Assembly (NCBI RefSeq): GCF_014205165.1
Contig: NZ_JACHMZ010000001.1
Coordinates: forward strand, 6,430,501-6,494,500
Source of the DNA: Micromonospora carbonacea
GTDB taxonomy: Bacteria > Actinomycetota > Actinomycetes > Mycobacteriales > Micromonosporaceae
Length of the DNA stretch: 64,000 nt
Reading direction: 5' to 3'
In this document: piece by piece, positions 11,346 through 31,332 of the stretch
How the letters are laid out: every line of letters begins with the position of its first letter
Position numbering within the stretch: position 1 is the first letter of the stretch
Notes under the pieces: model-generated
What the model was told of the DNA's origin: nothing
Database searches by the model: none
Seen by the model: the letters and a program-made list of their open reading frames with translations, nothing else
Translations under genes and position numbers: made by a program

Positions 11346-11361
11346 GATGGAAGGGAACACT

Positions 11362-12387: not shown

Positions 12388-12406
12388 GGCGACGCGCCGC
12401 GCACGA

Positions 12407-13471: not shown

Positions 13472-13477
13472 TAACAT
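13472..13477 (+). promoter_or_regulatory. -10 box of the winged-helix gene (leaderless)
   Basis: TAACAT lies 7 bases before ATG 13485. It is part of CATGTCGGACATG (13475-13487), a perfect 13-base palindrome that could be a self-operator. Confidence 0.5.
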
Positions 13478-13484
13478 GTCGGAC

Positions 13485-13946: not shown

Positions 13947-15139
13947 CCGGGCGGGCCGGGCTGCGGCGGGTCGCGCCGCCCGCGCTGGCGGCGCTGCTCG
14001 CCGCCGCCGTCGTGCCGCCCGCCCCGGCGTCGGCCGCCCCGACCTGCGGGCCGACCGGGAACCCCGCGCCCACCGGGGCGCCCTGGGCGCTGACCCGGCT
14101 CGACCCGGCCTCGGCCTGGCGGGTCACCCGGGGCGAGGGCGTCACCGTGGCGGTCGTCGACTCCGGCGTGTCGGCCACCCACCCGCTGCTACGCGGCCAG
14201 GTGCGCCCCGGCCGGGACTTCAACGCGCTGCCCAGCAACGCGGGGCAGTGCGACGCGGCCGGGCACGGCACGATCGTCGCCGGCATCATCGCCGGCCGGG
14301 AGGGCACCGGCTCGCCGTTCACCGGCATCGCGCCGGCCGCCCGGATCCTGCCCGTACGCGTGCTGCCGGACACCCGGCGCACCAACGACGAGGGCCTGCC
14401 GGCACAGATCGGCCTGGCCATCCGCTGGGCCGTCGACCAGGGCGCCGACGTGATCAACCTGTCCCTGGTCACCCTGCCCCGCCCGGAGCTGGCCGCCGCC
14501 GTCGAGTACGCCCTCGCCAAGGGCGTCGTCGTGGTGGCCGCCGCCGGCAACCGCCAGGAGCAGCAGCAGGACCTGCCGGCCTACCCGGCGGCGTATCCCG
14601 GGGTCATCGCCGTGGCCGGCGTCGACGCGCAGGGCGGCCACGTCGGCAGCTCGGTCAGCGGGGACTACGTGGACATCGCCGCCCCGGGGCTGGACATCGT
14701 CGGCCCCGCGCCCCGGGGGCAGGGCTACCTCGCCGAGCCGCAGGGCGGCACGAGCTTCGCCGCCGCGTACGTCTCGGGGGTGGCCGCGCTGGTCCGCGCC
14801 GCGCATCCGGATCTCACGCCGGACGGGGTGGGCTACCGGCTCACCCGCACTGCGGACAACCCCCCGGACGGGCACAACGCCGAGGTCGGGTACGGGGTGG
14901 TGAACCCCTACCGGGCGGTGACCAGCGTGCTCGGCACGCGCAGCGACCCGCCGCCCGGGGCGCTGGCCGCGCCCGCCCCGCCGCGCGACCCGCTGGGCTG
15001 GCAGCGGGCCGTGGCGGTCTGGGTGGCGGCGGTCGGCGCGGTCCTGGCCGGCGCGCTGCTGGCCGTCAGGCCGATCCTGGCCCGGGGACGGCGTCGGGGC
15101 TGGCGGCCGGGCCGCCGCCCCTCCACCGTCGAAAGCTGA
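13943..15139 (+). CDS. mycP: mycosin, ESX-associated subtilisin protease (first copy)
   Basis: A 398-residue membrane-anchored S8 serine protease. It has a signal peptide (to about residue 32), the triad D73 (AVVDSGV), H108 (GHGTIVAG) and S271 (GGTSFAAAYVSG), the oxyanion N203 (AAGN), and a C-terminal membrane helix AVAVWVAAVGAVLAGALLAV with a short basic cytoplasmic end. Mycosins sit on top of the ESX channel and process some substrates. Its GTG start overlaps the stop of the winged-helix gene. It converges with the leftward ESX operon. A second mycosin lies 2 kb away on the other strand. Confidence 0.93.
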   Translation: MTGRAGLRRVAPPALAALLAAAVVPPAPASAAPTCGPTGNPAPTGAPWALTRLDPASAWRVTRGEGVTVAVVDSGVSATHPLLRGQVRPGRDFNALPSNAGQCDAAGHGTIVAGIIAGREGTGSPFTGIAPAARILPVRVLPDTRRTNDEGLPAQIGLAIRWAVDQGADVINLSLVTLPRPELAAAVEYALAKGVVVVAAAGNRQEQQQDLPAYPAAYPGVIAVAGVDAQGGHVGSSVSGDYVDIAAPGLDIVGPAPRGQGYLAEPQGGTSFAAAYVSGVAALVRAAHPDLTPDGVGYRLTRTADNPPDGHNAEVGYGVVNPYRAVTSVLGTRSDPPPGALAAPAPPRDPLGWQRAVAVWVAAVGAVLAGALLAVRPILARGRRRGWRPGRRPSTVES

Positions 15140-15157: not shown

Positions 15158-16471
15158 TCAGCGCAGGATGCCGGGGGTGGCGTCGCCGCCCGCGCCCCAG
15201 ACGTCCTCGTCCTCCTCCAGCCAGGTGTTGCGCACCTGCTCCTCCTCGCCGTAGCCGGCCCCGCCCGCCGCGCCGGCCAGGCCGCCCCGCCCGGCCGTCG
15301 CGCCGCCCGGCCGGCCGGCACCCGCCGCGCCCCGGCCGCCCGCGCCCCGGGCACCGGCACCGCCGGCCGTGCCGGGGGCCACCATGCCGCCCATGCCCGG
15401 CTTGCCCGCGCCCAGCCGACCGCCCGCGCCCCGGCCCGCCGCCCGGCCCGCGCCGGCCGCGCCGCCGCCGAGCATCGGCGGCAGCCCCGGGCTGACCGTC
15501 TTGCCGAGCGCACCGCCGCCGGGAATGCCGCCGCCCGCGCCGCCGGTCGACAGGCCCGCGCCGCTGCCGCCGCCCAGCCCGCCCCCGCCGAGGCCGGTGG
15601 TGGCCGGCCCGCCGGCACCGGCCAGGCCCGTCCCGTAGTCGTCGTCCAGCCCGCCCGGGTCCACGGACCCGGTGTCGGGAAGGTCGGCGACGGGGGTGAG
15701 GTCCGGGTGGGTCGTCGACCCGAAGTCGGGCTTGCCGTCGCCGACCTCCGGCAGGGTGCCGATGCCGCCCGGGGAACCGCCGCCGACGCCGCCGGTCGAC
15801 GGCATGCCGCCCACCGACGGGACCCCACCGACGCCACCGGCGCCCGGGCCGCCGCCGAGGTCCGGCACCTCCGTGGGGCCCGTGCTCAGGCTGCTGGGGG
15901 TCACCGAGCCCGGCGCCTCCATCGTGCGGTCCTTGAAGTTGCCGTTGACCTCGTCGTAGACCTTGCGGGCGTCGCCCTCCTGGTCGGAGAACCAGCCCGT
16001 GACCCAGTCGCCCACCTTGCCGAGCTGCTCGACGGGCCAGCTGCCCATGACCTCCGCCGTGACCCGGGTCTCGAACAGCCCCACCCCGAGGGTGATCTCG
16101 CCGTTGCGGGCCGCCAGGACGTCACCGACGCAGGCCGCCGGGATCGGCATCTTGTTCTGGGCGTCCTCCAGCTGGCTGGCGGCCGTCTCCAGGGTGGTCA
16201 CGATGCTGACCTTGCCCCGCCCCGGGTTGTCGATGTCGTCGACCATCGACCTGGCGTTCTTGGCGAGCCCCTCGATGTGCGTCTTGAACGCCTCGTAGGC
16301 CGGGCCCTTCCAGACCACGCCGAGGTCCTTCACGTTCTTCTCCAGGCTCTCCCGGACCTGATCGACGTTCTTGATCAGCTCCTTCCAGCCCAGCGCGGCG
16401 CTCTGCACGTCGGCCGGGCGGCCGTCGACGAGCACCTCCCGGGCCATGTCCTCCCAGCTCTTGTCGCCCAC
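15158..16471 (-). CDS. large WXG-domain ESX protein with Gly-rich region and TWL tail
   Basis: A 437-residue protein starting at GTG 16471 behind GGGAG. Residues 1-110 are helical with WKG at 54-56, the turn of WXG100 proteins. After a second helical part (about 110-220) comes a long Gly/Pro/Ala-rich region (about 225-405), and the protein ends in an acidic stretch and the tail TWLEEDEDVWGAGGDATPGI. The protein at 30109-31332 has the same plan and the same tail. It is probably an ESX substrate or a surface partner. It is the last gene of the leftward ESX operon, with a 17-bp gap to the gene before. Confidence 0.85.
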   Translation of the reverse strand: MGDKSWEDMAREVLVDGRPADVQSAALGWKELIKNVDQVRESLEKNVKDLGVVWKGPAYEAFKTHIEGLAKNARSMVDDIDNPGRGKVSIVTTLETAASQLEDAQNKMPIPAACVGDVLAARNGEITLGVGLFETRVTAEVMGSWPVEQLGKVGDWVTGWFSDQEGDARKVYDEVNGNFKDRTMEAPGSVTPSSLSTGPTEVPDLGGGPGAGGVGGVPSVGGMPSTGGVGGGSPGGIGTLPEVGDGKPDFGSTTHPDLTPVADLPDTGSVDPGGLDDDYGTGLAGAGGPATTGLGGGGLGGGSGAGLSTGGAGGGIPGGGALGKTVSPGLPPMLGGGAAGAGRAAGRGAGGRLGAGKPGMGGMVAPGTAGGAGARGAGGRGAAGAGRPGGATAGRGGLAGAAGGAGYGEEEQVRNTWLEEDEDVWGAGGDATPGILR

Positions 16472-16488
16472 GTTCCGCTCCCGTCGAT

Positions 16489-17028
16489 CTAGCTGCCGCC
16501 GCGGGCGGCGTCGGTGAAGGCCTGCTGCATCTCCTGCGCGGTCATCTTGTTGGCCCCCTCGGCGGTCTCGTAGTTGCGCTTCACGGTGCGCAGCGCCTCG
16601 GCCGCCGAGTAGAGGTTCTCCGAGAGGGTGCGCAGCCCGCTCTCGGTGCCGCTGTAGACCTGCTGGTGCCGCTGGGCGAGTTGCAGGGCGTACGGGAAGC
16701 CACCGAGCGGCCCCTTGCCGGCGACGGCCTCGCCGCCGCCGAGCTTGTCGGAGATGTCGGCCATGTCGTAGGAGAGCCGGTTGAGGTAGCTGGCGTGCGT
16801 CTCCAGCCAGGTGATCGCGGAGTCGAGGTTGCCGGCGTCCCACTCCGTCTCGACGCCCTTCTCGCCCGCGCCGGCAACCAGCCCGCTCGGCGTCTCGGCC
16901 TGGTCGACGCCGATGCGGTCGAAGCTGATCCCCCGGATGTCGACCATCCCCGGGTAGGCCGCGTTGACCGGCAGCGGCACGGGCAGGTCGATCTCCACCC
17001 GGTCCGGATCGTGCTGTTCGTCGCTCAT
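16489..17028 (-). CDS. ESX-locus protein of unknown function, helical
   Basis: A 179-residue soluble protein without signal peptide or membrane segment. The first 45 residues look extended (VEIDLPVPLPVNAAYPGM), the rest is helical, ending in EGANKMTAQEMQQAFTDAAR. It has no clear WXG motif but has the size and helix pattern of WXG/PE-like ESX partners. It lies between a mycosin gene (37 bp gap) and the large WXG gene (17 bp gap) and is probably their secretion partner. I do not recognise a named family. Confidence 0.75.
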   Translation of the reverse strand: MSDEQHDPDRVEIDLPVPLPVNAAYPGMVDIRGISFDRIGVDQAETPSGLVAGAGEKGVETEWDAGNLDSAITWLETHASYLNRLSYDMADISDKLGGGEAVAGKGPLGGFPYALQLAQRHQQVYSGTESGLRTLSENLYSAAEALRTVKRNYETAEGANKMTAQEMQQAFTDAARGGS

Positions 17029-17065
17029 GATGCCCCTCCCTGGCCCCGTTTCTCAGGTGTCGGTG

Positions 17066-18415
17066 TCAGCGCGGCTGCGGCCCCGCCGGGCCGGGCGGCC
17101 GTGCCTGCGGCGGCGGCCCCGGCGGGTGCGGCCCGGGCGGGTGCGGCGGTGGGACGCCGAGCGGTGGCCCCGGCGGGTACGGCCCGGACGCGTAGGGCCC
17201 CGGCGGGTACGGGCCGGGCGGGACACGGCGGCGCGCCGCCCGGCGGTTGACCACGACCAGCCCCACCACCAACGCGCCGGCCAGGAGCACCACGAGCAGG
17301 CAGAGCGCCAGCCGGAACGGGGCGTTGTCGCCCAAGCTCACGGAGACCGCCGGCCGCCCGTCGGCGGGGTCGTCGCCGTCGTCGGTCGCGGCGGGGCCAC
17401 CCGGCTTCGCGGACGCGCCGGTCAGCAGCGGGTTGCCGGTCACCTCGGGCACGGCGGCGGTCAGCGCGGCCAGCACGTCGACGCCGCCGAAGCCGTACTC
17501 CGGGTCGCGGCCCGGGGCGCCCCGGTCCCGCGCGGTGCGGATCAGCCGGTTGACCACGTTGGCGGCGTCGAGCCGCGGATAGCGGGACCGCACCAGCGCG
17601 GCGACCCCGGAGACGATCGCCGACGCGTTGCTGCTGCCGTCGCCCACGCCGTAGCCGTTCGGCGACACCGGCGGCGGCACCGTGCTGATGATCCGTTCGC
17701 CGGGCGCGGCGATCCCCACCTCCGGGCCGGTGACCGACCCGCTCCACCGCGAGCCGTTCTTCCCGGTGCCCGCGACCGCGAGCACGCCGGGGACGTTGGC
17801 CGGCGTCGGCACGCCCTGGCTGGCGGCGCGGTTGCCGGCGGCGGCCACCAGCACCGCGCCCTTGCCGAGCGCGTACTCGACGGCCTCGGTGACCTGGGGG
17901 TCGTCGCCGGGGGTGCCGACGGACAGGTTGATCACGCCTGCTCCGGCGTCGGCCGCCCAGCGGATGCCGCCCGCGATGTCCCACTCGCGCGGCTCGCCGA
18001 GGGCGACCGGCAGGATCTTCGCCTCCGGGGCGATGCCGAGCAGCCGCATGGACCCGCCGCCCCGGCCGGCGATGATGCCGGCCATCGCGGTGCCGTGGCC
18101 CTTCTCGCGGTCCGGGTCGGCCTGGCCGTCGGCCCGCACCCCGCTGGACCGCGAGGTGCCCCTCAGGACCTGCCCCCGCAGGTCGGGGTGGGCGGCGTAG
18201 ACCCCGCCGTCGATCACCGCGACCGTGACGCCCGCGCCCCTGGTCAGCTTGTGCGCCTCGGGGATGCGCAGCGTGTCGAGGTGCCACTGGAGGCCGCGCA
18301 CCGTGTCGGCGGCGCGCGCCGGGGCAGGCGCGGTCAGCAGGCCGCCGGCCACGGCGGCCAGCGCCAGCATGGCGGCGGACCGCCGCAGCGGTCGCCGGTG
18401 TCCCCCCGTGTGCAT
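17066..18415 (-). CDS. mycP: mycosin, ESX-associated subtilisin protease (second copy)
   Basis: A 449-residue S8 protease with signal peptide (residues 1-36, ending PARAA), D69 (AVIDGG), H107 (KGHGTAMAG), N in AAAGN, and the catalytic serine in GSSNASAIVSG (about S262). A membrane helix (about residues 360-385) is followed by a Pro/Gly-rich cytoplasmic tail of about 60 residues, which the first mycosin lacks. ATG 18415 was chosen because it gives a proper signal peptide and follows GGGGGAGG. It lies directly after the WXG100 pair in the leftward operon. Confidence 0.92.
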   Translation of the reverse strand: MHTGGHRRPLRRSAAMLALAAVAGGLLTAPAPARAADTVRGLQWHLDTLRIPEAHKLTRGAGVTVAVIDGGVYAAHPDLRGQVLRGTSRSSGVRADGQADPDREKGHGTAMAGIIAGRGGGSMRLLGIAPEAKILPVALGEPREWDIAGGIRWAADAGAGVINLSVGTPGDDPQVTEAVEYALGKGAVLVAAAGNRAASQGVPTPANVPGVLAVAGTGKNGSRWSGSVTGPEVGIAAPGERIISTVPPPVSPNGYGVGDGSSNASAIVSGVAALVRSRYPRLDAANVVNRLIRTARDRGAPGRDPEYGFGGVDVLAALTAAVPEVTGNPLLTGASAKPGGPAATDDGDDPADGRPAVSVSLGDNAPFRLALCLLVVLLAGALVVGLVVVNRRAARRRVPPGPYPPGPYASGPYPPGPPLGVPPPHPPGPHPPGPPPQARPPGPAGPQPR

Positions 18416-18497
18416 CGTCCTCCCCCGGCCCTCGTCTGCCGTCACGCAGAACGGCTCCGGCCCGGTCGAGCCGGACCGGAGCCGCGTCGGCGTCAGC

Positions 18498-18779
18498 TCA
18501 GCTGTTCCACACCCGGGAGTTGCTCATCTCCGTGGTGACGTAGTTCTCGCGGGCGATGCCGACCGCGCCGCCGATGTCGTTCAGGATCTTGTTGATGTCC
18601 CGGACGGCGGCGTCCCACTGCGCCTGGTGCTGCTCGTAGGCGGTGCGGTCCTCGCCTTCCCAGTGCAGCTTGCTGAGCATGGAGCGCAGCGTGTCGAGCT
18701 TCTCGTCGATGGTCCGCGAGATCGCGGTCATCTGCTGGTGGCTGCTTTCGAGGACCGCGTAGTCAACTTTGATGCTCAT
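18498..18779 (-). CDS. WXG100 protein (ESAT-6-like)
   Basis: A 93-residue helical hairpin protein. The turn has WEG (in LHWEGEDRTAYEQHQ) instead of the usual WxG with small residues, still a fit. The end YVTTEMSNSRVWNS places a helix and a tryptophan after the hairpin. With the neighbour 28 bp upstream it should form the secreted heterodimer of this ESX system. Confidence 0.92.
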   Translation of the reverse strand: MSIKVDYAVLESSHQQMTAISRTIDEKLDTLRSMLSKLHWEGEDRTAYEQHQAQWDAAVRDINKILNDIGGAVGIARENYVTTEMSNSRVWNS

Positions 18780-18807
18780 GATTTCCTCCCCTACGCCTGG
18801 CTGCCGG

Positions 18808-19116
18808 TCACGGGTTCAGCGCAGCGTGGAACTTGTCCAGCATCTGCTGCTGTTCCTCGTCGTTGACCTGGTGGGTCGTGCCGGACTTGTCGAGCAGGTC
18901 GGCGATGTTGTCCATCGCGGTCAGCAGCTTGGCGGTGTCCTCGTTCCAGCGCAGCATGAGCTGCTGGAAGCCGGAGGACGCCTGCCCCTTCCAGGCCATC
19001 GCCAGGTCGTCGACCACGTTCCACAGCTTCTTCAGCTCACCGTCGACATCGCCGCGCGTGGACCGCACGTCATTCGCCGCGGTATGCAGAGTCGATGCGT
19101 CGACCTCGAACGCCAT
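18808..19116 (-). CDS. WXG100 protein (CFP-10-like partner)
   Basis: A 102-residue helical hairpin protein with WKG in the turn (MAWKGQASSGFQQLM). It forms the pair with the next gene. In such pairs one partner carries a C-terminal YxxxD/E export signal; here I see no clear YxxxD/E motif at the very end, so the signal may lie on the partner (YVTTE, residues about 80-84 of the other protein fits). Confidence 0.92.
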   Translation of the reverse strand: MAFEVDASTLHTAANDVRSTRGDVDGELKKLWNVVDDLAMAWKGQASSGFQQLMLRWNEDTAKLLTAMDNIADLLDKSGTTHQVNDEEQQQMLDKFHAALNP

Positions 19117-19337
19117 GCTTCACACCCTTCCGTCATCGTTGTGGCGGCGGAACTCTGCCGCGCCCCTCCCCCGTGGCAAGGCGACCAACCCCACCGACGG
19201 ACATTCAGGATGCACCGTAACCGACCTCGTCCAACCCGCGCAGCCCTGCCGCGGCGTCGTGGCCGCCCGAACAGGGTCCTCCCGGAGGGATCGCCCCAGC
19301 GTGGACCGTCCCCAGCGGACCCGGGCCGCGCCCCGGC

Positions 19338-19595
19338 TCAGGAGGGCCGACGGTACGACCGCACGTGCAGCACCACGCCGAACACCAGCAGCGCGGCCAG
19401 CAGCACCACGGCCGCCCAGAGCACCGGCTTCTCCAGGGCCCGGTCCAGCACCACCGGCAGCAGCGCGGCGATGCCGACGAGGACCGTCGCCTCGCTGGCC
19501 CGCTTCGCCCAGGTCGCCCGCGTGAGCTGCGCGACCAGCCCCAACACGAGGAAGACCGGGATGGTGACCAGGGCCAACACGAAGAGCGTCACCAT
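19338..19595 (-). CDS. small membrane protein of the ESX operon
   Basis: An 85-residue protein with three hydrophobic segments (residues 3-25, 36-50 and 57-77) and a basic end HVRSYRRPS. It starts 12 bp after the stop of the upstream gene. A gap of 221 bp separates it from the WXG100 pair, which may have its own promoter. Function unknown. Confidence 0.75.
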   Translation of the reverse strand: MVTLFVLALVTIPVFLVLGLVAQLTRATWAKRASEATVLVGIAALLPVVLDRALEKPVLWAAVVLLAALLVFGVVLHVRSYRRPS

Positions 19596-19607
19596 GTCGC
19601 CCGCCTC

Positions 19608-20333
19608 TCACTGGTAGAACTTGGAATCCTTGACCCAGTCGATCTTGATGTCCTTGATGTCGGGGTCGGTCCCGGTGGCCGCCCAGCCCGGGCGGGAGTC
19701 CGACACGAAGGCGAACCGGTTGTTGTGCTGGAACCCCGCCATCACGGTGGTGAACAGCGCGCTGATGTCGCCGAAGACCAGGGCGAGGATCGCCACGCTC
19801 ACGGTCAGCCCGGCCACCCCGATGGCCTCGGCGATGGGTGCGGTCGGCGGGAACGCCTGGAGGGCGACCGACGCGATCACAGCGATCAGGATCGGGATCA
19901 GCGCCTCGACCAGCGCGTCGACGGCGTCGTTGAAGGCGTCCCGGGCGGCGGTGAGGCTCTCCTTGTTGGCGTTGAACGCCTCGGCCAGCGAGTTGATCTC
20001 CGCGCCCAGCTTCCGGAGGAACAGCTCGAACGCGTCCCGGTCGTCGAAGTCCCACTCCTCCGCGGACGGCGGCACCTCGCCCAGGGCCGCGCCGAACTGG
20101 TCCGCGCCGAGCAGGCGGGCGGCGTCGCCCCACTCCTTGATGGACTTGTTGACCTCGTCGTTGTCGAACGTCTCCAGATAGGCGATCATCACGCCCAGGA
20201 AGCCCGCGCCGACCAGCCACATCCAGTTGGCCCGGGCCGCCGGGAGCAGGCCCCGCACCGGGGCCGTCGTCGCGGCGACCGTGTGCGTGCCGGTCACCGC
20301 GCCGGACGCGTTGGCGATCAGGATCTCCGTCAT
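19608..20333 (-). CDS. ESX-locus membrane protein with helical domain, unknown family
   Basis: A 241-residue protein. A membrane segment at about 35-50 is followed by a 90-residue charged helical part (about 55-145) of WXG-like length, then two hydrophobic segments (ALIPILIAVIASVALQAF and VAGLTVSVAILALVFG) and a polar end DIKIDWVKDSKFYQ. It looks like a WXG-type helical domain fused to a membrane module. It is co-directional and closely spaced with its neighbours. No known function. Confidence 0.75.
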   Translation of the reverse strand: MTEILIANASGAVTGTHTVAATTAPVRGLLPAARANWMWLVGAGFLGVMIAYLETFDNDEVNKSIKEWGDAARLLGADQFGAALGEVPPSAEEWDFDDRDAFELFLRKLGAEINSLAEAFNANKESLTAARDAFNDAVDALVEALIPILIAVIASVALQAFPPTAPIAEAIGVAGLTVSVAILALVFGDISALFTTVMAGFQHNNRFAFVSDSRPGWAATGTDPDIKDIKIDWVKDSKFYQ

Positions 20334-20364
20334 CGGTGCTGCCCCCCGTCGCGCCCCCGGCCGG

Positions 20365-20658
20365 TCACTTGACCACCCAGGGCTGATCCGACTTCTCCCA
20401 GTTGTTGGCGGTCTGTTCGAGCTGCTGGGCCGCCCGGTGCAGGTGCTCGATGCCGGTCTTCACGTTCTCCAGGTGGCCGTCGACCGAGGCGTTGTGCGCC
20501 TCGACGGTCGCGCCGCCGAAGAGGGTCAGCGACCCACCCGGCAGCTTCACGCTCTCCAGCAGCGACTGCACGTTGCGCAGGTACTGGATCGGGCCGTCCG
20601 GGGCGTCGAGCTTCTGGCCCGCCCTGCGGATCGCGTCGACGTCGACCGTGTTCGCCAT
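20365..20658 (-). CDS. small helical ESX-associated protein
   Basis: A 97-residue soluble protein of the same size as WXG100 proteins but without a WXG turn. It is mostly helical, with a middle stretch KLPGGSLTLFGG that could form the turn, and ends NNWEKSDQPWVVK. It sits between the YbaB-like gene (18 bp gap) and the membrane protein gene (31 bp gap), which supports a role as ESX substrate or chaperone. Confidence 0.78.
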   Translation of the reverse strand: MANTVDVDAIRRAGQKLDAPDGPIQYLRNVQSLLESVKLPGGSLTLFGGATVEAHNASVDGHLENVKTGIEHLHRAAQQLEQTANNWEKSDQPWVVK

Positions 20659-20676
20659 CGTGTCTCCCTGCCGGAC

Positions 20677-21096
20677 TCAGCGGCGCAGGCCGCGGAACGG
20701 GTCGCCCAGGTCCACCCCGAACCGGCGGAACCAGTCCTCGGGTGTCAGCGTGCCGGCCTGGGCCTGCCGGACCAGCTCGGAGCCGCCGAGCATCTCGGTG
20801 AGCAGCTCCTGCTGGTGCTCGCCGAAGGCCGCGTACGCCGCGTCGATCGCCGCCTGGAGCGACTCCGCGAGGGAGAAGCTGTCCAGCCGCATCGCCCGCG
20901 CGTTGATCTCGATGTCGCCGACCTTCATCTCGCCGTCGACCGTGACGCTGACCAGGCCGTCCGGGCTCTCCCCGGTCACCCGCAGCTCGGCGCGCTGCCG
21001 CTGGAACTCGGCCAGCCGACGCTGCTGCTCCTGCGCCTGACGCAGCATGCTCTCGACGGCGCCGTTGAGGCCGCCGTATCCCCCCGAGGTGCTCAC
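20677..21096 (-). CDS. YbaB/EbfC-like protein of the ESX locus
   Basis: A 139-residue protein: an N-terminal coiled coil rich in Q, R and E (MLRQAQEQQRRLAEFQRQRA), then the YbaB core DGLVSVTVDGEMKVGDIEIN and a helical C-terminus. YbaB proteins bind DNA, but copies inside ESX loci are thought to have other roles. I chose GTG 21096 because AAGGGA is 5 bases before it; the longer frame has no ribosome site. It is the first gene after eccC. Confidence 0.83.
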   Translation of the reverse strand: MSTSGGYGGLNGAVESMLRQAQEQQRRLAEFQRQRAELRVTGESPDGLVSVTVDGEMKVGDIEINARAMRLDSFSLAESLQAAIDAAYAAFGEHQQELLTEMLGGSELVRQAQAGTLTPEDWFRRFGVDLGDPFRGLRR

Positions 21097-21184
21097 CACG
21101 GTCCCTTCTGCACAACCGACGATCGGCCCGACGCTACCGGACCGGGGCACCCGGCGTCCGTCCCCGGCCGTGCCGGACCGTGGC

Positions 21185-24100
21185 CTAGGCCGGTTCGGAC
21201 CAGGCCGTCTGGACGAGTTGCTGGCCGTCGCGCCGCCGCACCAGCGTGCCCCGGCCGGGCGGCTGCGGGCTCGGGCGCAGCGTGCCGAAGACCGGCCCCT
21301 CCTCCCGCGCGCCGGACATCAGCAGGCCGGGCGAGTCGAGCTCGCGCAGGCGTTGCAGCACCGGCTCGTACAACGCCCGCGCCACGCCGCCGACCCGGCG
21401 GGCGACGATCAGGTGCAGGCCGATGTCGCGGGCCTGCGGCAGCAGCTCGTGCAGCGCGCTGAGCGGGTTGTTGCCGCCGGAGGCCACCAGGTCGTAGTCG
21501 TCGACCAGGAGGTAGAGGTCCGGCCCCTTCCACCAGCTCCGGTCGCGCAACTGGGCGGTGGTGACGTCCGGGCCGGGCAGCCGGTTGGACAGCGCGCTGC
21601 GGATCGACGCGAGGCCCTGGGCGAAGACCTGGTTGGACGGGGCGTAGTCGAGCAGGTGCTCGCCCTCGACCGCGCCGAGCAGGCCGCGCCGGTAGTCGGC
21701 GATGACCAGGCGGGCCTGCGCCGGGGTGTAGCGCTCGACGATCCCCCGGGCGATCACCCGCAGCAGGTTGGTCTTGCCGCACTCGGCGTCGCCGAACACG
21801 GTCAGGTGCGGCTCGCTGGCCAGGTCCAGGTAGACCGGCGCGAGCGCCGACTCGTCGACCCCGATCGGCAGGCCCGGCGCGGTGCGGTCGGCCACCCGGG
21901 CCAGCTCGGCCAGCGGCAGCCGGCGCGGCAGCAGCCGTACCTTCGGGGCGGGGGTGCCCGGCCACGCCCGCGCCACGTGCCCGGCCAGGGCGACCGACGC
22001 CTCGGTCAGGTCGTCGACGTCGCGGCGGCCGTCGATCCGCGACACCGCCGCCAGGAAGTGCAGCTTGTCGCGGGTCAGGCCGCGGCCGGGGGTCTTCTCC
22101 GGCACGTTCTGCGCGGCCCGCCGGTCGATCTCCGACTCGGCCGCGTCGCCGAGTCGCAGCTCCAGCTTCGTGCCGAGCAGGTCGCGCAGGTTGATCCGGA
22201 TCTCCGCCCAGCGCACCGCCGTGATCACCACGTGGATGCCGAAGCCCAGCCCCCGGTTGGCCAGGTTGGTGATGGTCTGCTCCAGCTCCTCGTACTCCTG
22301 GCGCAGCGTGTTCCAGCCGTCCACCACGAGGAACACGTCGCCGAACGGGTCGTCGGCGAACTCGCCGGCCGCCCGGCGACGCCGGTAGGCGGCCACCGAG
22401 TCGATGCCGTGCCGGGCGAACCGCTGCTCCCGCTCGTCGATGATCCCGACCACCTCGGCGACCGTGCGGCGGACCGCCTCGGTGTCCCGCCGGCCGGCCA
22501 CCCCCGCCGTGTGCGGCAGCCCCTCCAGGCTGCGCAGCGCCCCGCCGCCGAAGTCGAGGCAGAAGAACTGCGCCTCGCGCGGGGTGTGGGTGAGCGCCAG
22601 CGAGGCGAGCAGCGACCGCAGCAGGGTGCTCTTGCCGGACAGCGACGCGCCGACGATCACCACGTTGCCGCCCGCCCCGGCCAGCTCCACCATCATCGGG
22701 TCACGGCGCTGCTCGTACGGGCGGTCGACCACCCCGACCGGGACGGTGAGCCGCCCCCGGCCCGCCCAGCCGGCGGTGGTCAGGCCGTACGTCGGGTCGA
22801 CGGCGAGCTGGCCGAGCAGGTCCGCAAGGCTCGGCGGCTCCGACAGCGGCGGCAGCCACACCTGGTGGGCGGGGCGGCCCTGGCCGGCGAGCCGACCGAT
22901 CAGCACGTCGAGCGTGGCCACGGCCTTGCCCTCGGCCGGCTGCTCCGGCTCGGCCACCGGCTCCGCCGCCAGGTCCGGGGCGGGCGCCGGCACGAACTCC
23001 GTGCCGTACGGCACGATGCGGCGGCGCACCAGCGCCTGCGCCGAGCGCGCCTGCTCCCCCGGGGCCCGGTACGGGCCGGACACGTACGCGGCGCGGAACC
23101 GCAGCATGGTGGCGGTGTCGGTCTTGAGGTAGCCGTGGCCGGGGGCGCTGGGCAGCTCGTACGCGTCGGGCACGCCGAGCACGATCCGGCTCTCCACCGC
23201 CGAGAAGGTGCGCAGGCCGACCCGGTACGACAGGTGCGTGTCGAGGCCGCGCAGCTTGCCCTCCTCCAGCCGCTGGCTGGCGAGCAGCAGGTGCACGCCC
23301 AGCGACCGGCCCAGCCGGCCGATCATCACGAACAGGTCGATGAAGTCGGGCTTCGCGGCGAGCAGCTCGCTGAACTCGTCGCAGATGATGAGCAGGCTCG
23401 GCATCGGCTCCAGCGCCTCGCCGGCGGCCCGCGCCTTCTCGTACTCGTAGCGGGAGACGTAGTTGCCGGCGGCCCGCAGCACCTCCTGGCGGCGGTTCAT
23501 CTCGCCGGCCAGGGCGTCGCGCATCCGGTCGACCAGCGGCAGCTCGTCGGAGAGGTTGGTGATCACCGCGCTGGTGTGCGGCAGCGCGTCCAGGGAGGCG
23601 AACGTCGCGCCGCCCTTGAAGTCGACCAGGACGAAGTTCAGCTCCTCCGAGGAGTGGGTGACGGCGAGGGCGGCGACCACCGTACGCAGCAGCTCGCTCT
23701 TGCCGGAGCCGGTCGCGCCGATGACCAGGCCGTGCGGGCCCATGCCCTCGTGGGCGGACTCCTTGAAGTCCAGCTCGACGACGGTGCCGTCGGGGCCGAC
23801 GCCGAGGGGGATGCGCAGCCGGTCGCGGTGGCTGCGCGGCCGCCACGTCTGCCGCACGTCGACGGTGGCGGCGTCGCCGACGCCGAGCAGGTCCGGCAGC
23901 TCGGTGCTGCGGGCCAGCGGCTCCTCCGCGCCGGCCTGCTGCTGGGAGAGGCGGTAGGGGGCGAGCTGCCGGGCCAGCCCCTCGGCCGCGGCGGCGGTGA
24001 GCCGGTCGGGGCGGCCCAGCCGGGTGCTGGTGGCACCCCGGACCAGGTCGACGGCGGTGCCGTCGCCGACGTCGAGGCAGAGCAGCCAGCGGCCGGCGTC

Positions 24101-25147
24101 GCGGGGCACGGCCCCGGAGAGGTCCACGACGGTGGTGCCGAGCAGGCTCGGGCCGGTGAGCTGGCAGGTGGCGGCGACCTCGCCGCCGTCGACGACCACC
24201 AGCAGGTGCGGCGCGGTGGTCAGCGGCTTGGCGTCCGGGCTGAACCGGTGCCGGCCGGCCAACTCGTCGGCGAGGGACTCCTCGGCCTCGGCGAGGGTGG
24301 CGAAGACGAGACGGCGGGCCCCGGCGGCGTCGGTGCGGCCGGGGTGCTGGGCGTGCGGCAGCCACTTCACCCAGTCCCAGGCCGGCTGCCGGTCGTCGGC
24401 GGCGACCACGACGACGACCAGGTCGTCCGGGGCGTGGAAGGTGGCGAGCTGGCCGATCGTCGCCCGGGCCAGGTCGAGGACCGGCTCCCGCTCGCCGCGC
24501 AGCACCACCCGGGAGAACGCCCGCACCGACAGCGCGGTGGGCAGGTCCGGCACCGTGGAGTGGGCGCGGACGAACCGGCGCAGCGCGATCGCGCTCATCG
24601 GCTCCAGGTCCTCCACCGGCTTCGTCTCCGGCGGCACGATCTCCACCGCCAGCCGCTGCGGGCCGACCGCGATCCGCGCCTCGCCGAAGTCGTCCTCGGT
24701 GACCCGGCGTTCCCACAGCCGGCGGGACGCGGCGATCGACCAGAGCGCGTCGGGCTCCGGGTGCCGCCACGTCATCGCGGCCCGCTGCTGCTCGGCCGCG
24801 CGCCGGGTGCGCTTGCGCATCTGGGCCAGGTAGCGCATGTAGTCGCGGCGCTCGGCGTTCAGCTCGGCCTTGTCGTTGCCGCCGTTGCTCAGCGAGCCGA
24901 CCGCCATGCCGAGCATGGAGACCCCGAAGAGCCCACCCGCGACGTACGTCATCATGCCGCCGCCCCGGCCGGCGTAGAGGAACGCCATCGCGCCGACGCC
25001 GCAGACCATCGGCAGGATCATCAGCAGCTGGCCCATGCCCCGGGGGGTCGGCTCGGGCAGCTCCGGCGGGGATTCGAGCAGCACCTCGCCGCGCGGCAGG
25101 GCGGGCCCCGGCTGACGCGGAAGCCGACGGAACACGACGGTGCTCAC
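21185..25147 (-). CDS. eccC: EccC, ESX core ATPase with three FtsK-like domains
   Basis: A 1320-residue motor of type VII secretion. Two membrane segments lie at about 38-75. Then come three FtsK/SpoIIIE ATPase domains with Walker A motifs [16 protein letters not shown] and GDAECGKT. The first domain has a complete Walker B ([12 protein letters not shown]); the second ([10 protein letters not shown]) and third ([11 protein letters not shown]) lack the catalytic glutamate, as is usual for EccC, where only the first domain is the active motor and the last binds substrate tails. It starts at GTG 25147 behind GGAGGAG. The chain is one polypeptide, not split into EccCa/EccCb. It diverges from eccD. 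Confidence 0.96.
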
Positions 25148-25349
25148 GGCGTTCTCCTCCCCCAGAAGCGGCCCGGACGCCGGCCGGCGCGGCGTGACGT
25201 GCGGCCGGGGTGGCGCGACGACCGGGCGCGGGCCGTCGGGTGGGCATCGTACGTGGGGGTCATCGTAGGTAATCTCCCGTGGGCGTCGGGGACCCGCTTC
25301 GGCGGCGGCCCGGGCCGGGTGGAGCGCAGGCGAACGCGAGGAGGCCACA

Positions 25350-26747
25350 GTGGCGACGAGGACGGCGACCGGCGGCCTGAGCCGGGTCACCATCGTGGCG
25401 CCCCGGACCAGGATGGACCTCGCCCTCCCCGCCGACGTGCCGTTGGCGGACCTGCTGCCGACCCTGCTGCGGTACGCGGGTGAGGACCTCGCCGACGAGG
25501 GGGCGCGGCACGGCGGCTGGAGCCTGGCCCGGCTCGGCGGGCAGCCCCTCGACGGTGGTCGGACGGCCGCGCAGCTCGGCGTCCGCGACGGCGAGGTGCT
25601 CTACTTCAACCCCCGCGCGGCGGCGGCCCCGGAGATCGTCTTCGACGACGTGGTGGACGCCGTGGCGACCGCGACGAACCAGCGCCCGGGAAGCTGGCAG
25701 GTGAGCACGAGCCGCGCGTTCGCGGTGCTGTTCGCGGCGGCGGCGCTGTCGGCCGGCGCGCTGGCGACCCTGTTCGCGGGCCCGCCGCAGCTGCCCGGGG
25801 CGATCGCCGCCCTGCTGGTGGCGGTCGCCCTGCTGGTCGGCGCGGCCGTGCTGTCCCGGGCGGCCGGCGACAGCCGCACCGGCGCGGTGCTGGCCCTGGT
25901 CGGCCTCGGGTACGCCGCCGTCGGCGGCCTGCTGGTGCTGGCCGGCGACCGGGGCCTGGGCGAGCTGGCCGCCCCGCACGTGCTGCTCGCCGCGACCGCC
26001 GTGGTGGTGTTCGGCGCGGTCGCCGCGCTGGCGGTCGGCGACCGGCTGCCGCTGTTCTTCGCCGCGGTCGCCGTCGGCGGGGCGGTCGGCTTCGGCGCGG
26101 TGGTGGGCCTGGCGTTCTCGGTGGGCGCGCCGGCCGCCGCCGCGGTGGTCGCCACGGTCGCGTTCGCCACCCTGCCGGCCCTGCCGATGGCGGCGTACCG
26201 GCTGGCCCGGCTGCCCGTGCCGTCCATCCCGACCGGCCCGGACGACCTGAAGACCGACACCGAGACCGTCGACGGCCGCAGCGTGCTGCGGCGCAGCGAG
26301 CGGGCCGACGAGTTCCTCACCGGCCTGCTGTGGACGGTCGCGCTGCTGGTGCTGGGCGGGGAGGTCGTGCTCGCCCTCGACGGCCGGCTGCCAGCGGTGC
26401 TGCTCTGCCTGGTGCTGGCCCTGCTGTCGCTGCTGCGCGCCCGGCCGTTCCTCGGTCGCGCCCAGCGCGTGCCGGTGCTGCTGGCCGGCGGCCTCGGGCT
26501 GGGCCTCACGGCGGCGGCCACCTTCGCCGCGGGCGGCGCGGCCGTCCGGCTCGGCGTGGTCCTCGGCGGGCTGGTGGTGGCGGCCGTGGTCAGCCTGATC
26601 TACGGCCTGACCGTGGCGGGCAAGCGGATCTCGCCGGTGTGGGGGCGGCTGCTGGACATCGTCGAGGTGCTGCTCATCATCTCGCTGGTGCCCCTGGCGG
26701 TCTGGGTCTGCGGCCTCTACGGCTGGATCGTCAACCTCCGCCCCTGA
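25350..26747 (+). CDS. eccD: EccD, ESX membrane channel protein
   Basis: A 465-residue protein with an N-terminal ubiquitin-like domain of about 90 residues ([20 protein letters not shown] onwards) and 11 predicted membrane segments. EccD dimers line the inner-membrane pore of the ESX machine. It starts at GTG 25350 with GAGGAGG before it. The region 25148-25349 is shared with the divergent eccC and should hold both promoters. It converges with eccE, with only 12 bp between the stops. Confidence 0.94.
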
Positions 26748-26759
26748 CCCCGTCGCGGC

Positions 26760-27953
26760 TCAGTCGGGGCGGTGGTCGAGGACGCGGCGGGCCGTCGGGG
26801 CGGTGCCCCAGGCGGCGGGGCCGTGCTCGCCGTCCAGCGGCCGGGCCGGGACGCCCGCCCGGCGGGCGACGTCCCGGACCACCTCGACCAGCGCCCCGAC
26901 GTGGTCGGCCGGGGCGGCGACGCGCAGCAGCGGCGGGCCGGGCCGGTCGCCGGGGCGGACCACCGCCGCGAACGTGTGCGACGGCGCGGCGGTGGCGGTG
27001 ACGGCGTCCACCAGGGGCCCCCAGGTGGCACCGGCGCGGGGGCGCAGGGCCAGGCAGCGCTGGGTCCAGCCGCCGCCGCGCAGCCCGGTCCAGGTCTCCG
27101 CCTGCGGCTCGGGCGTCAGGTCCAGCCCGGCCGCCGAGAGCAGCGCGGCGCGCAGCTCGTCCCGGCCCAGGACCCGGTGGCCCAGGCCGGCGGCGTGCAG
27201 CGACTTGCCGAGCCGGCCGACCGCCGCCGCGACGGTGCGGTGCACGCCGAGCGTCCCGCCGCCCCGGGTCACCGCCTCGGTGCGGGCGTCGCGCACCGAC
27301 AGCCGCACGGCCACCCAGACGGTGCGGTGGGCGGCCGGGGGCGCGCCCGGGGCCGGGTACCAGACGAGGGTGTGCGAGACGACCTGGGCCAGCGACACCG
27401 GCGCGGTGAAGTCGGCGAGCACGGCCAGGGCCCGGTCCACCGTCGCCGCGTCGACCGAGCCGGCGGGCGCGCCGGGGGGCGGGTCCAGCGCCACGGCGGC
27501 GAACCAGCCCCGGACGTCCTGGCCGACGCCGAGGCGGGTGCCGCGCTCGGTCAGCTCGACCATGGTCAGCTCGGGGGCGACGACGGCCAGCCGGGTGTCG
27601 CCCGGGTCGCCGCCGGCCGCCGCCCGCGCCTCCTCCCGGCGCAGCCGCAGCCGGCGGCGCAGCAGCAGGTCCTCGTACCACCAGCGGCCGCCCCGGCGGG
27701 CGAAGGCGGCGGCGACGGCCGCCACCGCGACGACCCCGACGACGGCGGCCAGCCACGTGGGTCCGCCGAGCGCGGCGTAGCCGGCCACGGCGGCCAGCTC
27801 CGCCACGACGAGCTGGCCGACGACGACCGGGCCGAGCCGGCCCCGGCTGCGCCGGTCGGCGGGGACCACCGCGCGGTCGGGCGGCGCGGGCCGGGCGGGC
27901 GGATCGGCCGGGCCGGCGGCCGGGCGACCGGGTGGCGCCTGCACCTGCGTCAT
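26760..27953 (-). CDS. eccE: EccE, ESX membrane complex protein
   Basis: A 397-residue protein: Pro/Ala-rich N-terminus, two membrane segments (about 42-90), then a basic patch (LLLRRRLRLRREEARA) and a soluble domain of about 290 residues. This matches type VII secretion EccE, which sits at the edge of the core complex. It starts at ATG 27953 behind GAAGGGA. Unlike in mycobacteria it is on the opposite strand from eccD and eccB, which flank it. Confidence 0.88.
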   Translation of the reverse strand: MTQVQAPPGRPAAGPADPPARPAPPDRAVVPADRRSRGRLGPVVVGQLVVAELAAVAGYAALGGPTWLAAVVGVVAVAAVAAAFARRGGRWWYEDLLLRRRLRLRREEARAAAGGDPGDTRLAVVAPELTMVELTERGTRLGVGQDVRGWFAAVALDPPPGAPAGSVDAATVDRALAVLADFTAPVSLAQVVSHTLVWYPAPGAPPAAHRTVWVAVRLSVRDARTEAVTRGGGTLGVHRTVAAAVGRLGKSLHAAGLGHRVLGRDELRAALLSAAGLDLTPEPQAETWTGLRGGGWTQRCLALRPRAGATWGPLVDAVTATAAPSHTFAAVVRPGDRPGPPLLRVAAPADHVGALVEVVRDVARRAGVPARPLDGEHGPAAWGTAPTARRVLDHRPD

Positions 27954-28174
27954 CGGCGGCGTCCCTTCTCGACAGCGGGTCTGCTGGCAGCCGGCGCGGG
28001 TGGTGGCTCCCGTCCCGGACGGGCGGTGAGGCCGTCCCCGGGCGGTGGCCCCGGTGACCGGCCGGCGGCCCCTTATCGTAGGGAAGCCCGTGGCGACGCT
28101 CGGACCTGATCGCCACGGCCCACCCCGTCGTCGGGCTCGATCGTCGCGGCCCGACCCGCCGCCGGAGGTAGCTC

Positions 28175-29587
28175 ATGCGGACCCGCCGCGACCAGGTGCA
28201 GGCGTACCGCTTCGTCACCCGCCGGATCGTCTCCGCGCTGCTCTCCGGCGACCCCGAGACGACGAACCTGCCGATGCGGCGGCTCGGGCTGGCGGTGGTC
28301 GGCAGCGTGGTCGCCGCGGCGGTGGTGCTCGGCGGCGTCGGCGCGTACGGCCAGCTCACCGGCAACGCCGCGCCGCTGGAGGCGAACACGCTGGTGATCG
28401 AGCGGGAGACCGGGGCGACGTACGTCTACGTCGACGGCCTGCTGCACCCGACCCTGAACTACGCCTCGGCCCGGCTCGTCCTCGACGCGGCGGACCCGAC
28501 GGTGCGGACCATGTCGCGGGCGTCCATCGCGGACCGGCCGCGCGGGCGCACCATCGGGATCGTCGGCGCGCCGGACGCGCTGCCCGACCGCAAGGCGCTG
28601 GTCGGGCTGCCCTGGTCGGTCTGCGACGTGCCGGACCCGGCCGCCCCCGACCGGTCGACCACCCACCTGGTGATCGACCGGCCGCTCGCCGGCGGCACGC
28701 CGCTGGGCGACCGCGCGGTGCTGGCCACCGTGGACGGCCGGCGTTACCTGCTCACCGGCGACGCCCGGCTGCGGATCGCCGGCGGGGACCCGGCGGCCGC
28801 CGCGCTGCGGATGGCCGGGGCCACCACGCTCACGGTCGGCGAGCAGCTGCTCAACGCGGTGCCGGCGGGGCCGGTGCTCCGCGAGCCGCAGCTGCCCGGC
28901 GAGGGCGAGACCGGCCGGCAGGCCGTGGGCGACGGGCCGGCCAAGGTCGGCGACGTGTTCCGGGCCGCCGGCCAGCACTACGTGCTGACCCGGGAGGGGC
29001 TGGCGTCGATCGGCGAGGTCAGCGCCCTGCTGCTGCTGCGCGACGGCGGCCGGATCACCGACATCACCCCGGACGAGGCCGGCCGGCTGCTGACCCGGCA
29101 GCGGGTGGAGGCGGAGGGCACGCCGCGCACCCTGCCGGCGCTGCACCCGGTGCAGGCGGGCCGGACGGTGCTCTGCGCCACCTACCGCCGGTCGGCGGCC
29201 GACGCGCCGCCCACCACCACCCTGGAGATCTTCGACCGGGCGCCGACCGAGCTGACCGGCCCGGCCGGGAACCCGGTCCGGCAGGGGGCCGGCGACGCGG
29301 TCCGCACCGCCGAGCAGGTGCTGCTGCCGGGCGGCCGGGGCGTGCTGGTCCAGGCCGCGCCGGGTGCCGGGGAGGGCGGCGCGGGCGCGCCGGGCTCGAC
29401 GGTCTACCTGGTCACCGCCCAGGGGGTACGCCACCCGCTGGGCACCCGGTCGGGCGACGCGCTGACCGCCCTCGGCTACGGCGGGGTTCAGCCGCTGGCG
29501 GTGCCCGCGTCGCTGCTGGCCCTGATCCCGACGGGTCCCGCCCTGGAACGCCAGGACGCGCTGGCCTACTTCGCCCCGGGCACGTAG
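28175..29587 (+). CDS. eccB: EccB, ESX periplasmic core protein
   Basis: A 470-residue protein. It starts MRTRRDQVQAYRFVTRRIVS, the near-invariant EccB beginning, has one membrane segment at about 45-65, and a large extracytoplasmic domain with two paired-cysteine positions (in WSVCDVPD and VLCATYRR). EccB forms the upper ring of the complex. It starts at ATG 28175 behind GGAGGTAG. It is followed by two WXG-type genes on the same strand. Confidence 0.95.
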   Translation: MRTRRDQVQAYRFVTRRIVSALLSGDPETTNLPMRRLGLAVVGSVVAAAVVLGGVGAYGQLTGNAAPLEANTLVIERETGATYVYVDGLLHPTLNYASARLVLDAADPTVRTMSRASIADRPRGRTIGIVGAPDALPDRKALVGLPWSVCDVPDPAAPDRSTTHLVIDRPLAGGTPLGDRAVLATVDGRRYLLTGDARLRIAGGDPAAAALRMAGATTLTVGEQLLNAVPAGPVLREPQLPGEGETGRQAVGDGPAKVGDVFRAAGQHYVLTREGLASIGEVSALLLLRDGGRITDITPDEAGRLLTRQRVEAEGTPRTLPALHPVQAGRTVLCATYRRSAADAPPTTTLEIFDRAPTELTGPAGNPVRQGAGDAVRTAEQVLLPGGRGVLVQAAPGAGEGGAGAPGSTVYLVTAQGVRHPLGTRSGDALTALGYGGVQPLAVPASLLALIPTGPALERQDALAYFAPGT

Positions 29588-29747
29588 CCGCTGCCGGCGG
29601 GCGCGTAACCGCTGCTGGCGGGCACCTCGGTGCTGCCGCCCGGGCGCGCAGGGGCCGCCGTGGGGCGTCGTCACGGGTCGCCCGGTCTGGTCGCCGTCCA
29701 CTAACCTGATCCTCGCCAACGGTTATCGACGACGTACGGGGAATGCC

Positions 29748-30116
29748 ATGACCGGGCGCACGACAGTCGACGTACTGTCCCTGGAGGACTTCCAGCGACG
29801 GTTGGCCGCGCGGCTCAGCGAGGCCGAGGCCGTGCTCAGGAAGCTCACCACCGAGTTGCAGTGCCGGCCGCCGGATCTGGGCACGTTCGCCGACGCGACC
29901 AGCAACGCCCGCCGCTACTCGGCGCTCCAGACGAGCTACGCGCAACGGGTCGAGCGGCTGCGCGACGCGGTGAAGGCGGCGCAGAGCGCGACCGGCACGA
30001 TCCTGACCAACTACCGGACCACGGAGGCGCGCAACGCGGCCAACGCCGCCGACATCGCCGCCGCGCTCACCGGGGTCGACGACGCGCTGAACGGGAGGGA
30101 CGACCCTCGTGTCTGA
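29748..30116 (+). CDS. small helical ESX-associated protein
   Basis: A 122-residue helical protein with no signal peptide, likely a long hairpin: two charged helices (about 12-40 and 55-110). It has no clear WXG turn. The last codons overlap the next gene by 8 bp, so it is coupled to the large WXG protein and is likely its partner. An in-frame ATG at 29742 would add two residues. Confidence 0.78.
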   Translation: MTGRTTVDVLSLEDFQRRLAARLSEAEAVLRKLTTELQCRPPDLGTFADATSNARRYSALQTSYAQRVERLRDAVKAAQSATGTILTNYRTTEARNAANAADIAAALTGVDDALNGRDDPRV

Positions 30117-31332
30117 ATACACCGCGCGCTACGAGGACGTCAGCCACCAGCGGCTCTACGACGCGGTGCGGGCCGGCGACCCCGAGCAGATCGACGGCCT
30201 CGCCAGCAGCTGGAGCTCCATGAAGGGCACCCTCGACGACCTCGCCCGCGACCTGCGGGCCGACCTGGAGAAGCTGGCCAACGGCTGGACGGGCGACGCC
30301 GGCCGGGAGTTCCAGCGGCGGGTGTCGCTGGTCGTCGACTACTCGACGTCCCTCTCCGAGGGGATGGCCGACGTGCGTCAGGGGCTGACGCTGATGGCCA
30401 CCGACCTGCGGGCCGCGCAGAAGGAGGCGGAGAGCCCCGCCGAGACCGACGACCACGACAAGACGGTCTCCGGGGCGATCACGGGCGGCCTCACCGGTGG
30501 CCTGCCGGGCGCGATCGTCGGCGGCTTCCTGGGGCACGAGCAGGACAAGGCCGAGCAGGAGAAGGCGCACCGGCGGATGGTCCAGGTGGTCGCCGAGCTG
30601 GCGGCCGGCTACGACCTATCGGCGTACGGCCGGCTGGTCGATCCGCCGCCGCCGGACGGCGACCTGCCGTACGACCCGAGCACCAGCACGTCGACGCCGT
30701 CGGCCGGTCCCGGGGCCCACGCGCCGCGGAGCGCGCCGGGCGGCGGCTTCGGCACCCCGACCACGGGCCAGGCATGGCTGGACGCCCCGGGCAACCTGAC
30801 GGACGGGCCGGACACGCAGCAGCCGGGCGGGGACGACGGCGGCTCGGTGTCGCCGGGCGGCACGGCCGGGGCCGGCGACACCGGCCTCGACACGGGCACG
30901 TCGCTCGCCGGCGCCGTGCCGCTCGACGGCGGCCTGTCGGCCGGCCCGGTGGGCGCGGCGGGCGGCGTGACGGCCGCCGCGTCGGCCGGGGCCGGGGCCG
31001 GGGCCGGGGCGGGGCTGCTCTTCGGCGCGCCCGCCGGGGCGTCGGTCGGCGTGCTCGGCGGCGGCACCGGCTCCCTGGCCGGGTCGGCCCGCACCGGCGC
31101 GACGGTGGCGGCCCGGCCGGCGGGTGGCCTGGCGGGGGCGGAGCACCGGGCCGCCACGGGCGTGGGCCGGGCGGGCGCGAACGGCACCGGCGGCGGGCGC
31201 ACGGGCGTGCTGGGCGGGCGCGGGCGGGCCGACGACGACGAGTCCGACGAGCGGCTGACCTGGCTGACGGAGGACGACATGGTCTGGCGGGACGGCGACC
31301 CGGGGGTCCCGCCGGTGCTCGACGCCGGCTGA
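30109..31332 (+). CDS. large WXG-domain ESX protein with glycine zipper and TWL tail
   Basis: A 407-residue protein starting at GTG 30109. Residues 1-110 form a WXG100-like helical hairpin with WTG at 60-62. At 121-142 there is a glycine-zipper-like stretch (SGAITGGLTGGLPGAIVGGF) that could insert in a membrane. A long Gly/Ala/Pro/Thr-rich part follows, then an acidic block and the tail TWLTEDDMVWRDGDPGVPPV. The tail matches that of the protein at 15158-16471. It is probably an ESX substrate. A strong terminator follows. Confidence 0.85.
   Translation: MSEYTARYEDVSHQRLYDAVRAGDPEQIDGLASSWSSMKGTLDDLARDLRADLEKLANGWTGDAGREFQRRVSLVVDYSTSLSEGMADVRQGLTLMATDLRAAQKEAESPAETDDHDKTVSGAITGGLTGGLPGAIVGGFLGHEQDKAEQEKAHRRMVQVVAELAAGYDLSAYGRLVDPPPPDGDLPYDPSTSTSTPSAGPGAHAPRSAPGGGFGTPTTGQAWLDAPGNLTDGPDTQQPGGDDGGSVSPGGTAGAGDTGLDTGTSLAGAVPLDGGLSAGPVGAAGGVTAAASAGAGAGAGAGLLFGAPAGASVGVLGGGTGSLAGSARTGATVAARPAGGLAGAEHRAATGVGRAGANGTGGGRTGVLGGRGRADDDESDERLTWLTEDDMVWRDGDPGVPPVLDAG

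Follow-up and report, generated by a model that had tools for sequence, protein, structure and literature searches.

A conserved C-terminal tail on PPE-like proteins encoded at ESX loci of Micromonospora and other actinobacteria

Two proteins encoded on opposite strands of an ESX (type VII secretion) locus of Micromonospora carbonacea, which we refer to as P0002 and P0003, end in the same short tail, TWLxED[ED]xVW followed after 7 residues by P[GP][IV]L, and this tail recurs on proteins encoded at ESX loci in several families of actinobacteria. The locus lies in a stretch of 64,000 nucleotides (the window; contig NZ_JACHMZ010000001.1, positions 6,430,501 to 6,494,500). We give about an even chance, a probability near 0.5, to the reading that PPE-like halves of substrate pairs carry the tail as a conserved second tag, which a component of the ESX machine recognizes around export. 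A sequence-only reading of this DNA had proposed the shared tail and a common plan of WXG-like N terminus, Gly-rich middle, acidic stretch and tail; both translations carry the tail and the plan is correct, with the spacing from VW to P-[GP]-[IV]-L being 7 residues rather than the approximately 11 given there. The two genes and their tail cores are:

15158..16471, minus strand: P0002, a 437-residue WXG/PPE-like protein (from translation) with a Gly-rich middle and the C-terminal tail
15197..15226, minus strand: P0002 tail core TWLEEDEDVW, residues 416-425, followed by GAGGDATPGILR and the stop codon
30109..31332, plus strand: P0003, 407 residues, with a predicted PPE fold, a Gly-rich middle and the C-terminal tail
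31258..31287, plus strand: P0003 tail core TWLTEDDMVW, residues 384-393, followed by RDGDPGVPPVLDAG and the stop codon

The complete C-terminal ends are ...RNTWLEEDEDVWGAGGDATPGILR for P0002 and ...RLTWLTEDDMVWRDGDPGVPPVLDAG for P0003. At the other end, P0003 exceeds the cut-offs of both Pfam WXG100 and WXG100_2, and P0002 matches WXG100 (PF06013) with an E value of 8e-4, under the cut-off. The N-terminal domain of P0003 is predicted to adopt a PPE fold, and that of P0002 is less clearly predicted to do so. Neither window protein passes the cut-off of the Pfam PPE family PF00823, for which P0002 reaches 14.5 bits against a cut-off of 26 and P0003 is unlisted; 11 of the 49 members of the P0003 alignment match PF00823 at E values up to 0.01, in a table that does not show the cut-off. 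Both proteins thus combine what marks an ESX substrate, a gene in an ESX locus and a WXG/PPE-like N-terminal domain.

With homologous N-terminal domains (21% identity, E 6e-6 by BLAST; 99.5% in a profile comparison), P0002 and P0003 look like old paralogues that have kept both ends while their middles diverged, and as paralogues they need no convergence to share an end. The tail might then be a functionless leftover of the common ancestor, or a chance acidic end, a reading against which the pattern of conservation speaks strongly. When P0003 orthologues were chosen by residues 1-180 alone and the best 120 of 150 were compared, 112 kept the strict tail; seven of the eight misses are named 'partial', and the eighth, P0166 (408 residues), ends in unrelated residues. 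In the 112 orthologues, mean column identity is 98% for the tail core, 57% for the adjoining linker, which has diverged, and 76% for residues 1-110; orthologue tables selected by means of the tail were kept out of this evidence. Codons also vary under fixed residues at four positions: among 133 distinct strict tails, the fixed Leu is encoded by 5 codons, Val by 3, and Thr and Glu by 2 each, while the fixed Asp is GAC in all 133. Together with the 119 strict copies and absence of control matches described below, these observations make ancestry alone a very improbable explanation, and the conservation that the sequence-only reading had counted on in close orthologues is found in proteins collected without reference to the tail.

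Copies of the tail were sought with a strict DNA pattern, back-translated from TWLxED[ED]xVW, and with the same pattern reversed as a control. The 7.53 Mb genome contains three matches to the strict pattern, each in an ESX locus, and none to the control. The third copy, TWLKEDEKVW, is on a 1044-residue protein in a second, different ESX locus (L004), where profile matches to eccC, eccD and eccB are followed by small WXG-type genes and the tail protein; the small genes, like others marked below as named by eye, were assigned without a profile search. Across 200 genomes of the family, we found 119 strict copies in 78 genomes of 14 genera and no match to the reversed control, and in all 30 loci fetched from this search a long reading frame carries the motif close to its end. 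Relaxed copies, detected with a tail profile, are present in 17 of 44 hand-picked family genomes that lack the strict pattern. A looser profile, A4, applied class-wide, finds the tail in 42 of 296 genomes and 15 of 114 genera, with no match in family f2 (Mycobacteriaceae by inference only), of which at least 20 genomes were searched. The recurrence of the tail is not chance.

The second ESX locus has two further features, both named by eye: a 649-residue DXD-type sugar-transferase-like protein between eccC and eccD (L004:4308-6254, plus strand) and, downstream of the 1044-residue tail protein, a very long protein resembling polymorphic-toxin-type cargo (L004:14394-19901, plus strand), which runs past the end of the stretch that was read. 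The 1044-residue protein belongs to a long class of tail proteins (L153-L179, L004), several families of which have a Met/Pro-rich stretch, such as GMPFMPMGGMGG, shortly before the tail.

Tail genes concentrate at ESX loci. In the family, 73 of the 119 strict copies (62 + 11) are within 12.3 kb of an EccCb match. The remaining 46, most of them in orphan cassettes, comprise 31 copies in one genus, g11, 10 in tandem cassettes of g6 (one of five such genomes, L038, was read) and five others, of which one is 32 kb from EccC (G098/L044), two are single orphan cassettes (L039 and L040) and two are near contig starts. A scan of named species genomes for the tail alone yielded 380 motif stretches, of which 78 were kept by similarity to the P0003 tail and so lean towards P0003 orthologues. 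Among these, every locus of at least 15 kb contains an Ecc gene (66/66) and 64 of 66 contain EccC; outside Micromonospora, an Ecc gene is present in 21 of 21, including loci of Actinomadura, Microtetraspora, Streptosporangium and Actinokineospora. The 12 loci shorter than 15 kb were set aside, nine of them showing no Ecc gene. In the class, outside the window's own family, 35 of 45 copies are within 15 kb of EccC, compared with a positional expectation, near two EccC copies, of roughly 1% of the genome. The ten distant copies include three near contig starts (60-1,653 bases), one on a contig that ends nearby (G745), one in G550 and four in orphan cassettes (G804, G798 and two in G832); the tenth, in G827, a genome with no EccC match, is likely a chance match.

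The enrichment at ESX loci that the sequence-only reading predicted is therefore evident in all three samples. Its companion expectation, that tail proteins would have an N-terminal WXG domain, held in part: a WXG-type Pfam domain was found in only five of 10 diverse tail proteins. The shorter motif W.G occurs in the first 300 residues of 76 of 81 tail proteins, compared with 278 of 906 other proteins of the same loci, the sequences being related and not independent.

The window locus contains the core of an ESX machine, and each tail gene is preceded by a small partner gene:

13943..15139, plus strand: second subtilase/mycosin-like gene, converging on P0002 (Peptidase_S8, E 9.5e-49)
16489..17028, minus strand: P0002 partner, 179 residues, with NYETAE (YxxxE), directly upstream of P0002; no Pfam match
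17066..18445, minus strand: mycosin (subtilase), upstream of the P0002 partner (Peptidase_S8, E 2.6e-47; TIGR03921, E 2.2e-79, 267 bits against a cut-off of 279)
18498..18779, minus strand: WXG100 protein, 93 residues, with NYVTTE (PF06013, E 6e-13)
18808..19116, minus strand: WXG100 protein, 102 residues (PF06013, E 3e-17)
21185..25393, minus strand: EccC (EccCa + EccCb; TIGR03924 and TIGR03925, well over cut-off)
25350..26747, plus strand: EccD (TIGR03920, over cut-off)
26760..27953, minus strand: EccE (TIGR03923, E 7e-19, below cut-off)
28175..29587, plus strand: EccB (TIGR03919, over cut-off)
29748..30116, plus strand: P0003 partner, 122 residues, with NYRTTE (YxxxE), directly upstream of P0003

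Two mycP genes have been reported before in an ESX cluster of Micromonospora (partial text of PMC4182475).

The tail had been suggested to act in place of the general secretion signal YxxxD/E. This part of the proposal is not supported, as the partners directly upstream of both tail genes have YxxxE. PPE proteins are expected to follow such a YxxxD/E partner, and the 179-residue (YETAE) and 122-residue (YRTTE) proteins, with a putative PE fold, occupy that place; more widely, the upstream gene contains YxxxE for 73 of 78 tail genes with a called neighbor, a raw count with no background rate. Because the N-terminal domain of P0003 is predicted to have a PPE fold, and that of P0002 less clearly so, the window proteins and their partners look like PE/PPE-type pairs. 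P0003 has no YxxxD/E in its own sequence, and the only one in P0002, YGEEE at residue 407, is beside the tail.

It is possible that the tail core itself follows a grammar like that of YxxxD/E, and we regard this as a lead. The core, [WYF]-[LM]-x-[ED]-[DE], places an aromatic and an acidic residue four apart, often with a hydrophobic residue at +7, and aromatic-xxx-[DE] is present in 45 of 48 tail variants found by profile (19/22 and 26/26 in two sets). The exceptions are L051, with Arg for the aromatic residue, L146, with Thr at +4, and L150, where the region is not covered. Since acidic residues abound in the core, this match is unsurprising by itself. Some tails of family f4 are literally YLxED; both window cores have Trp instead of Tyr and thus lack a strict YxxxD/E.

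The tail shares with YxxxD/E an aromatic residue and, at +4, an acidic one, often with a hydrophobic residue at +7, on a protein associated with type VII secretion. However, YxxxD/E follows the second helix of the PE/Esx half, whereas the tail is longer and lies close to the C terminus of the PPE-like half, which it reaches through a long flexible linker, and the window pairs have both signals. Poulsen et al. (2014) extended the known signal to HxxxD/ExxhxxxH, and the available part of their report deals with a C-terminal pattern that lies within the WXG100 helix (PMC3935865). Our literature search found no paper describing a tail of this kind, and we have therefore filed it as a so far undescribed feature of PPE-type cargo of type VII secretion.

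How might such a tail work? In the mechanism we propose, P0002 and P0003 would each be the PPE-like half of a PE/PPE-type substrate pair in an actinobacterial ESX system that lacks EspG; the other member of each pair, a small protein encoded directly upstream, bears the general YxxxE signal. The tail, with consensus [T]-[WYF]-L-x-E-[DE]-x-x-[V]-W and usually, after about 7 more residues, P-x-[VI]-[LI]-G, would be a second, conserved short linear motif at or near the C terminus, presented on a long flexible Gly-rich tether, and a conserved ESX component, the putative receptor, would read it before or during export. We infer that P0002 and P0003 are exported, that a component of the machine binds the tail and that this binding plays a part in export.

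EccC is a candidate receptor. The EsxB C-terminal signal LxxxMxF, which is recognized by the third ATPase domain of EccC (ATPase3), resembles the tail in being a short sequence at or near the C terminus of a substrate, but its sequence differs. As the ATPase3 pocket is described as hypervariable in the part of PMC6954902 available, while the tail is almost invariant across families, EccC fits poorly in this role. The same source notes that the Asp of YxxxD/E does not touch the ATPase domain, and suggests that another component or a later step is involved.

In mycobacterial PE/PPE pairs, the factor that confers system specificity is EspG (PMC5311947, partial text). The pairs described here share with these a predicted PPE fold (P0003) and a small upstream YxxxE partner, but differ in that 14 of the 15 tail genomes scanned, this one among them, lack a match to EspG (PF14011), that Pfam PPE is not passed and that the C-terminal tail is conserved. 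According to the available part of PMC4791881, nine species that do not belong to the mycolic-acid producers have ESX-4 clusters, and the gain of pe/ppe together with espG is placed on a later plasmid line.

It is also conceivable that a chaperone-like factor of the cytosol, linked to ESX, binds the tail; it would be either a tandem AAA+ ATPase resembling EccA or a YbaB/EspL-like protein. CbxX-type AAA+ matches, paired in one frame and below the EccA cut-off, occur close to ESX loci with tails of the long class (G000:C1:2308916-2310541, and likewise G036, G444 and G754), and small YbaB-like proteins are encoded near several tail genes (by eye). However, no EccA match exceeds the cut-off in any of the 15 tail genomes scanned, two of which have no match even at E 1e-20; in this genome even the nearest match is some 100 kb away from the window, and YbaB-like genes are not seen at every tail locus. 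We consider a chaperone of this type quite improbable as the reader of the tail. YbaB/EbfC-like small proteins named by eye adjoin eccC or tail genes at 20677-21115 of the window (minus strand) and at L004:13542-13991.

A second role worth weighing, and the main rival to recognition before or during export, is that the mycosin reads the tail during or after passage, using it as a docking or processing handle, and that the tail-bearing end of the protein is trimmed off outside the membrane. The precedent is EspB of ESX-1, which resembles the window proteins in having a PPE-type fold followed by a flexible C-terminal region and a link to a mycosin. According to the portions available, the C terminus of EspB is trimmed by MycP1 before the mature protein oligomerizes (PMC9811218), and EspB is the only known mycosin substrate (PMC5082899). 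EspB differs in comprising PE and PPE in one chain with its own YxxxD/E (PMC9811218), whereas the partners of P0002 and P0003 are separate genes. In the window, P0002 and its partner are encoded between two subtilase genes, but nearness to a mycosin inside ESX loci tells little because mycosins are core ESX genes.

Tail genes that stand apart from EccC, in orphan cassettes, show two recurring arrangements. In one (L038, L039, L040, L184, L185), a partner and a tail protein are accompanied by a mycosin, whose gene directly follows the tail gene in L184 and L185 (tails DYLAEDEETW and DYLTEDEETW). In the other, a small partner is followed by a lipoprotein (by eye) and the tail protein, as in five g11 loci (L035, L036, L037, L042, L043) and in L183, whose tail is SFLIEDDPEAVFGTDEVTAPPVIGG; there is no mycosin match in the stretches read for these six. 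A mycosin match is thus present in five of the 11 EccC-free tail stretches read, a count that excludes L044, 32 kb from EccC, where the stretch read also has none. One g11 genome has, at its EccC locus, a variant tail, TWLREDDVDW, and a mycosin match. The protease activity is also reported to be unneeded for secretion in the species studied (PMC5082899, in part). Given both sides, we hold recognition of the tail by the mycosin to be unlikely, if the strongest of the alternatives.

The same loci bear on another possibility, that the tail works outside the cell or in the envelope, in assembly or surface anchoring of the exported PPE-like protein. In L183 and the five g11 loci, the small partner and the tail protein are separated by the lipoprotein-like gene; in three other loci (L117, L126, L128), two or three different tail proteins are encoded together; and EspB has been proposed to assemble into rings or channels once exported (available text of PMC9811218). 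The tail is, however, common to proteins with widely differing N-terminal domains and linkers and tracks ESX loci, and an envelope role seems to us improbable.

Several variant loci were also observed. L184 contains a tandem duplication (7176-11434, plus strand) of a full tail protein, a mycosin, a 98-residue remnant with the same tail and a second mycosin. In L183, espG is directly downstream of the tail gene (7397-8164, minus strand), and 12 EspG matches are present in that genome. At the contig start of L042, a short frame (86-220, plus strand) ends in VEDANMWGYVDEDDDPYA, resembling a degenerate g11-type tail. L180 encodes an EccC-type protein of 1448 residues (9700-14043, minus strand) with an extra N-terminal part that is caspase-like by eye; EccB, EccD and mycosin matches are all absent from the 20 kb read.

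Returning to the tail as a recognition tag on PPE-like halves, this reading bears on how EspG-less ESX machines pick PPE-like cargo, on what binds YxxxD/E and on what mycosins recognize. A near-invariant, portable tail of 10 residues is a ready bait, open to deletion, to exchange between proteins and to use as a synthetic peptide. The tail is also a marker for likely ESX cargo, including that of orphan cassettes far from any machine, and should allow cargo to be found in Micromonospora, Actinomadura, Streptosporangium and other non-mycobacterial actinobacteria.

More speculatively, and we think somewhat doubtfully, ESX systems of non-mycobacterial actinobacteria may use a second, hitherto undescribed targeting code, an aromatic-LxE[DE]..VW tail on the PPE-like half that is chemically related to YxxxD/E, such that pairs are tagged on both halves, selection resembles that by EspG and orphans are sent in trans. 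If this is true, the tail would carry out the substrate selection of EspG in lineages that lack EspG, and tailed orphan cassettes would be served by the resident ESX machine.

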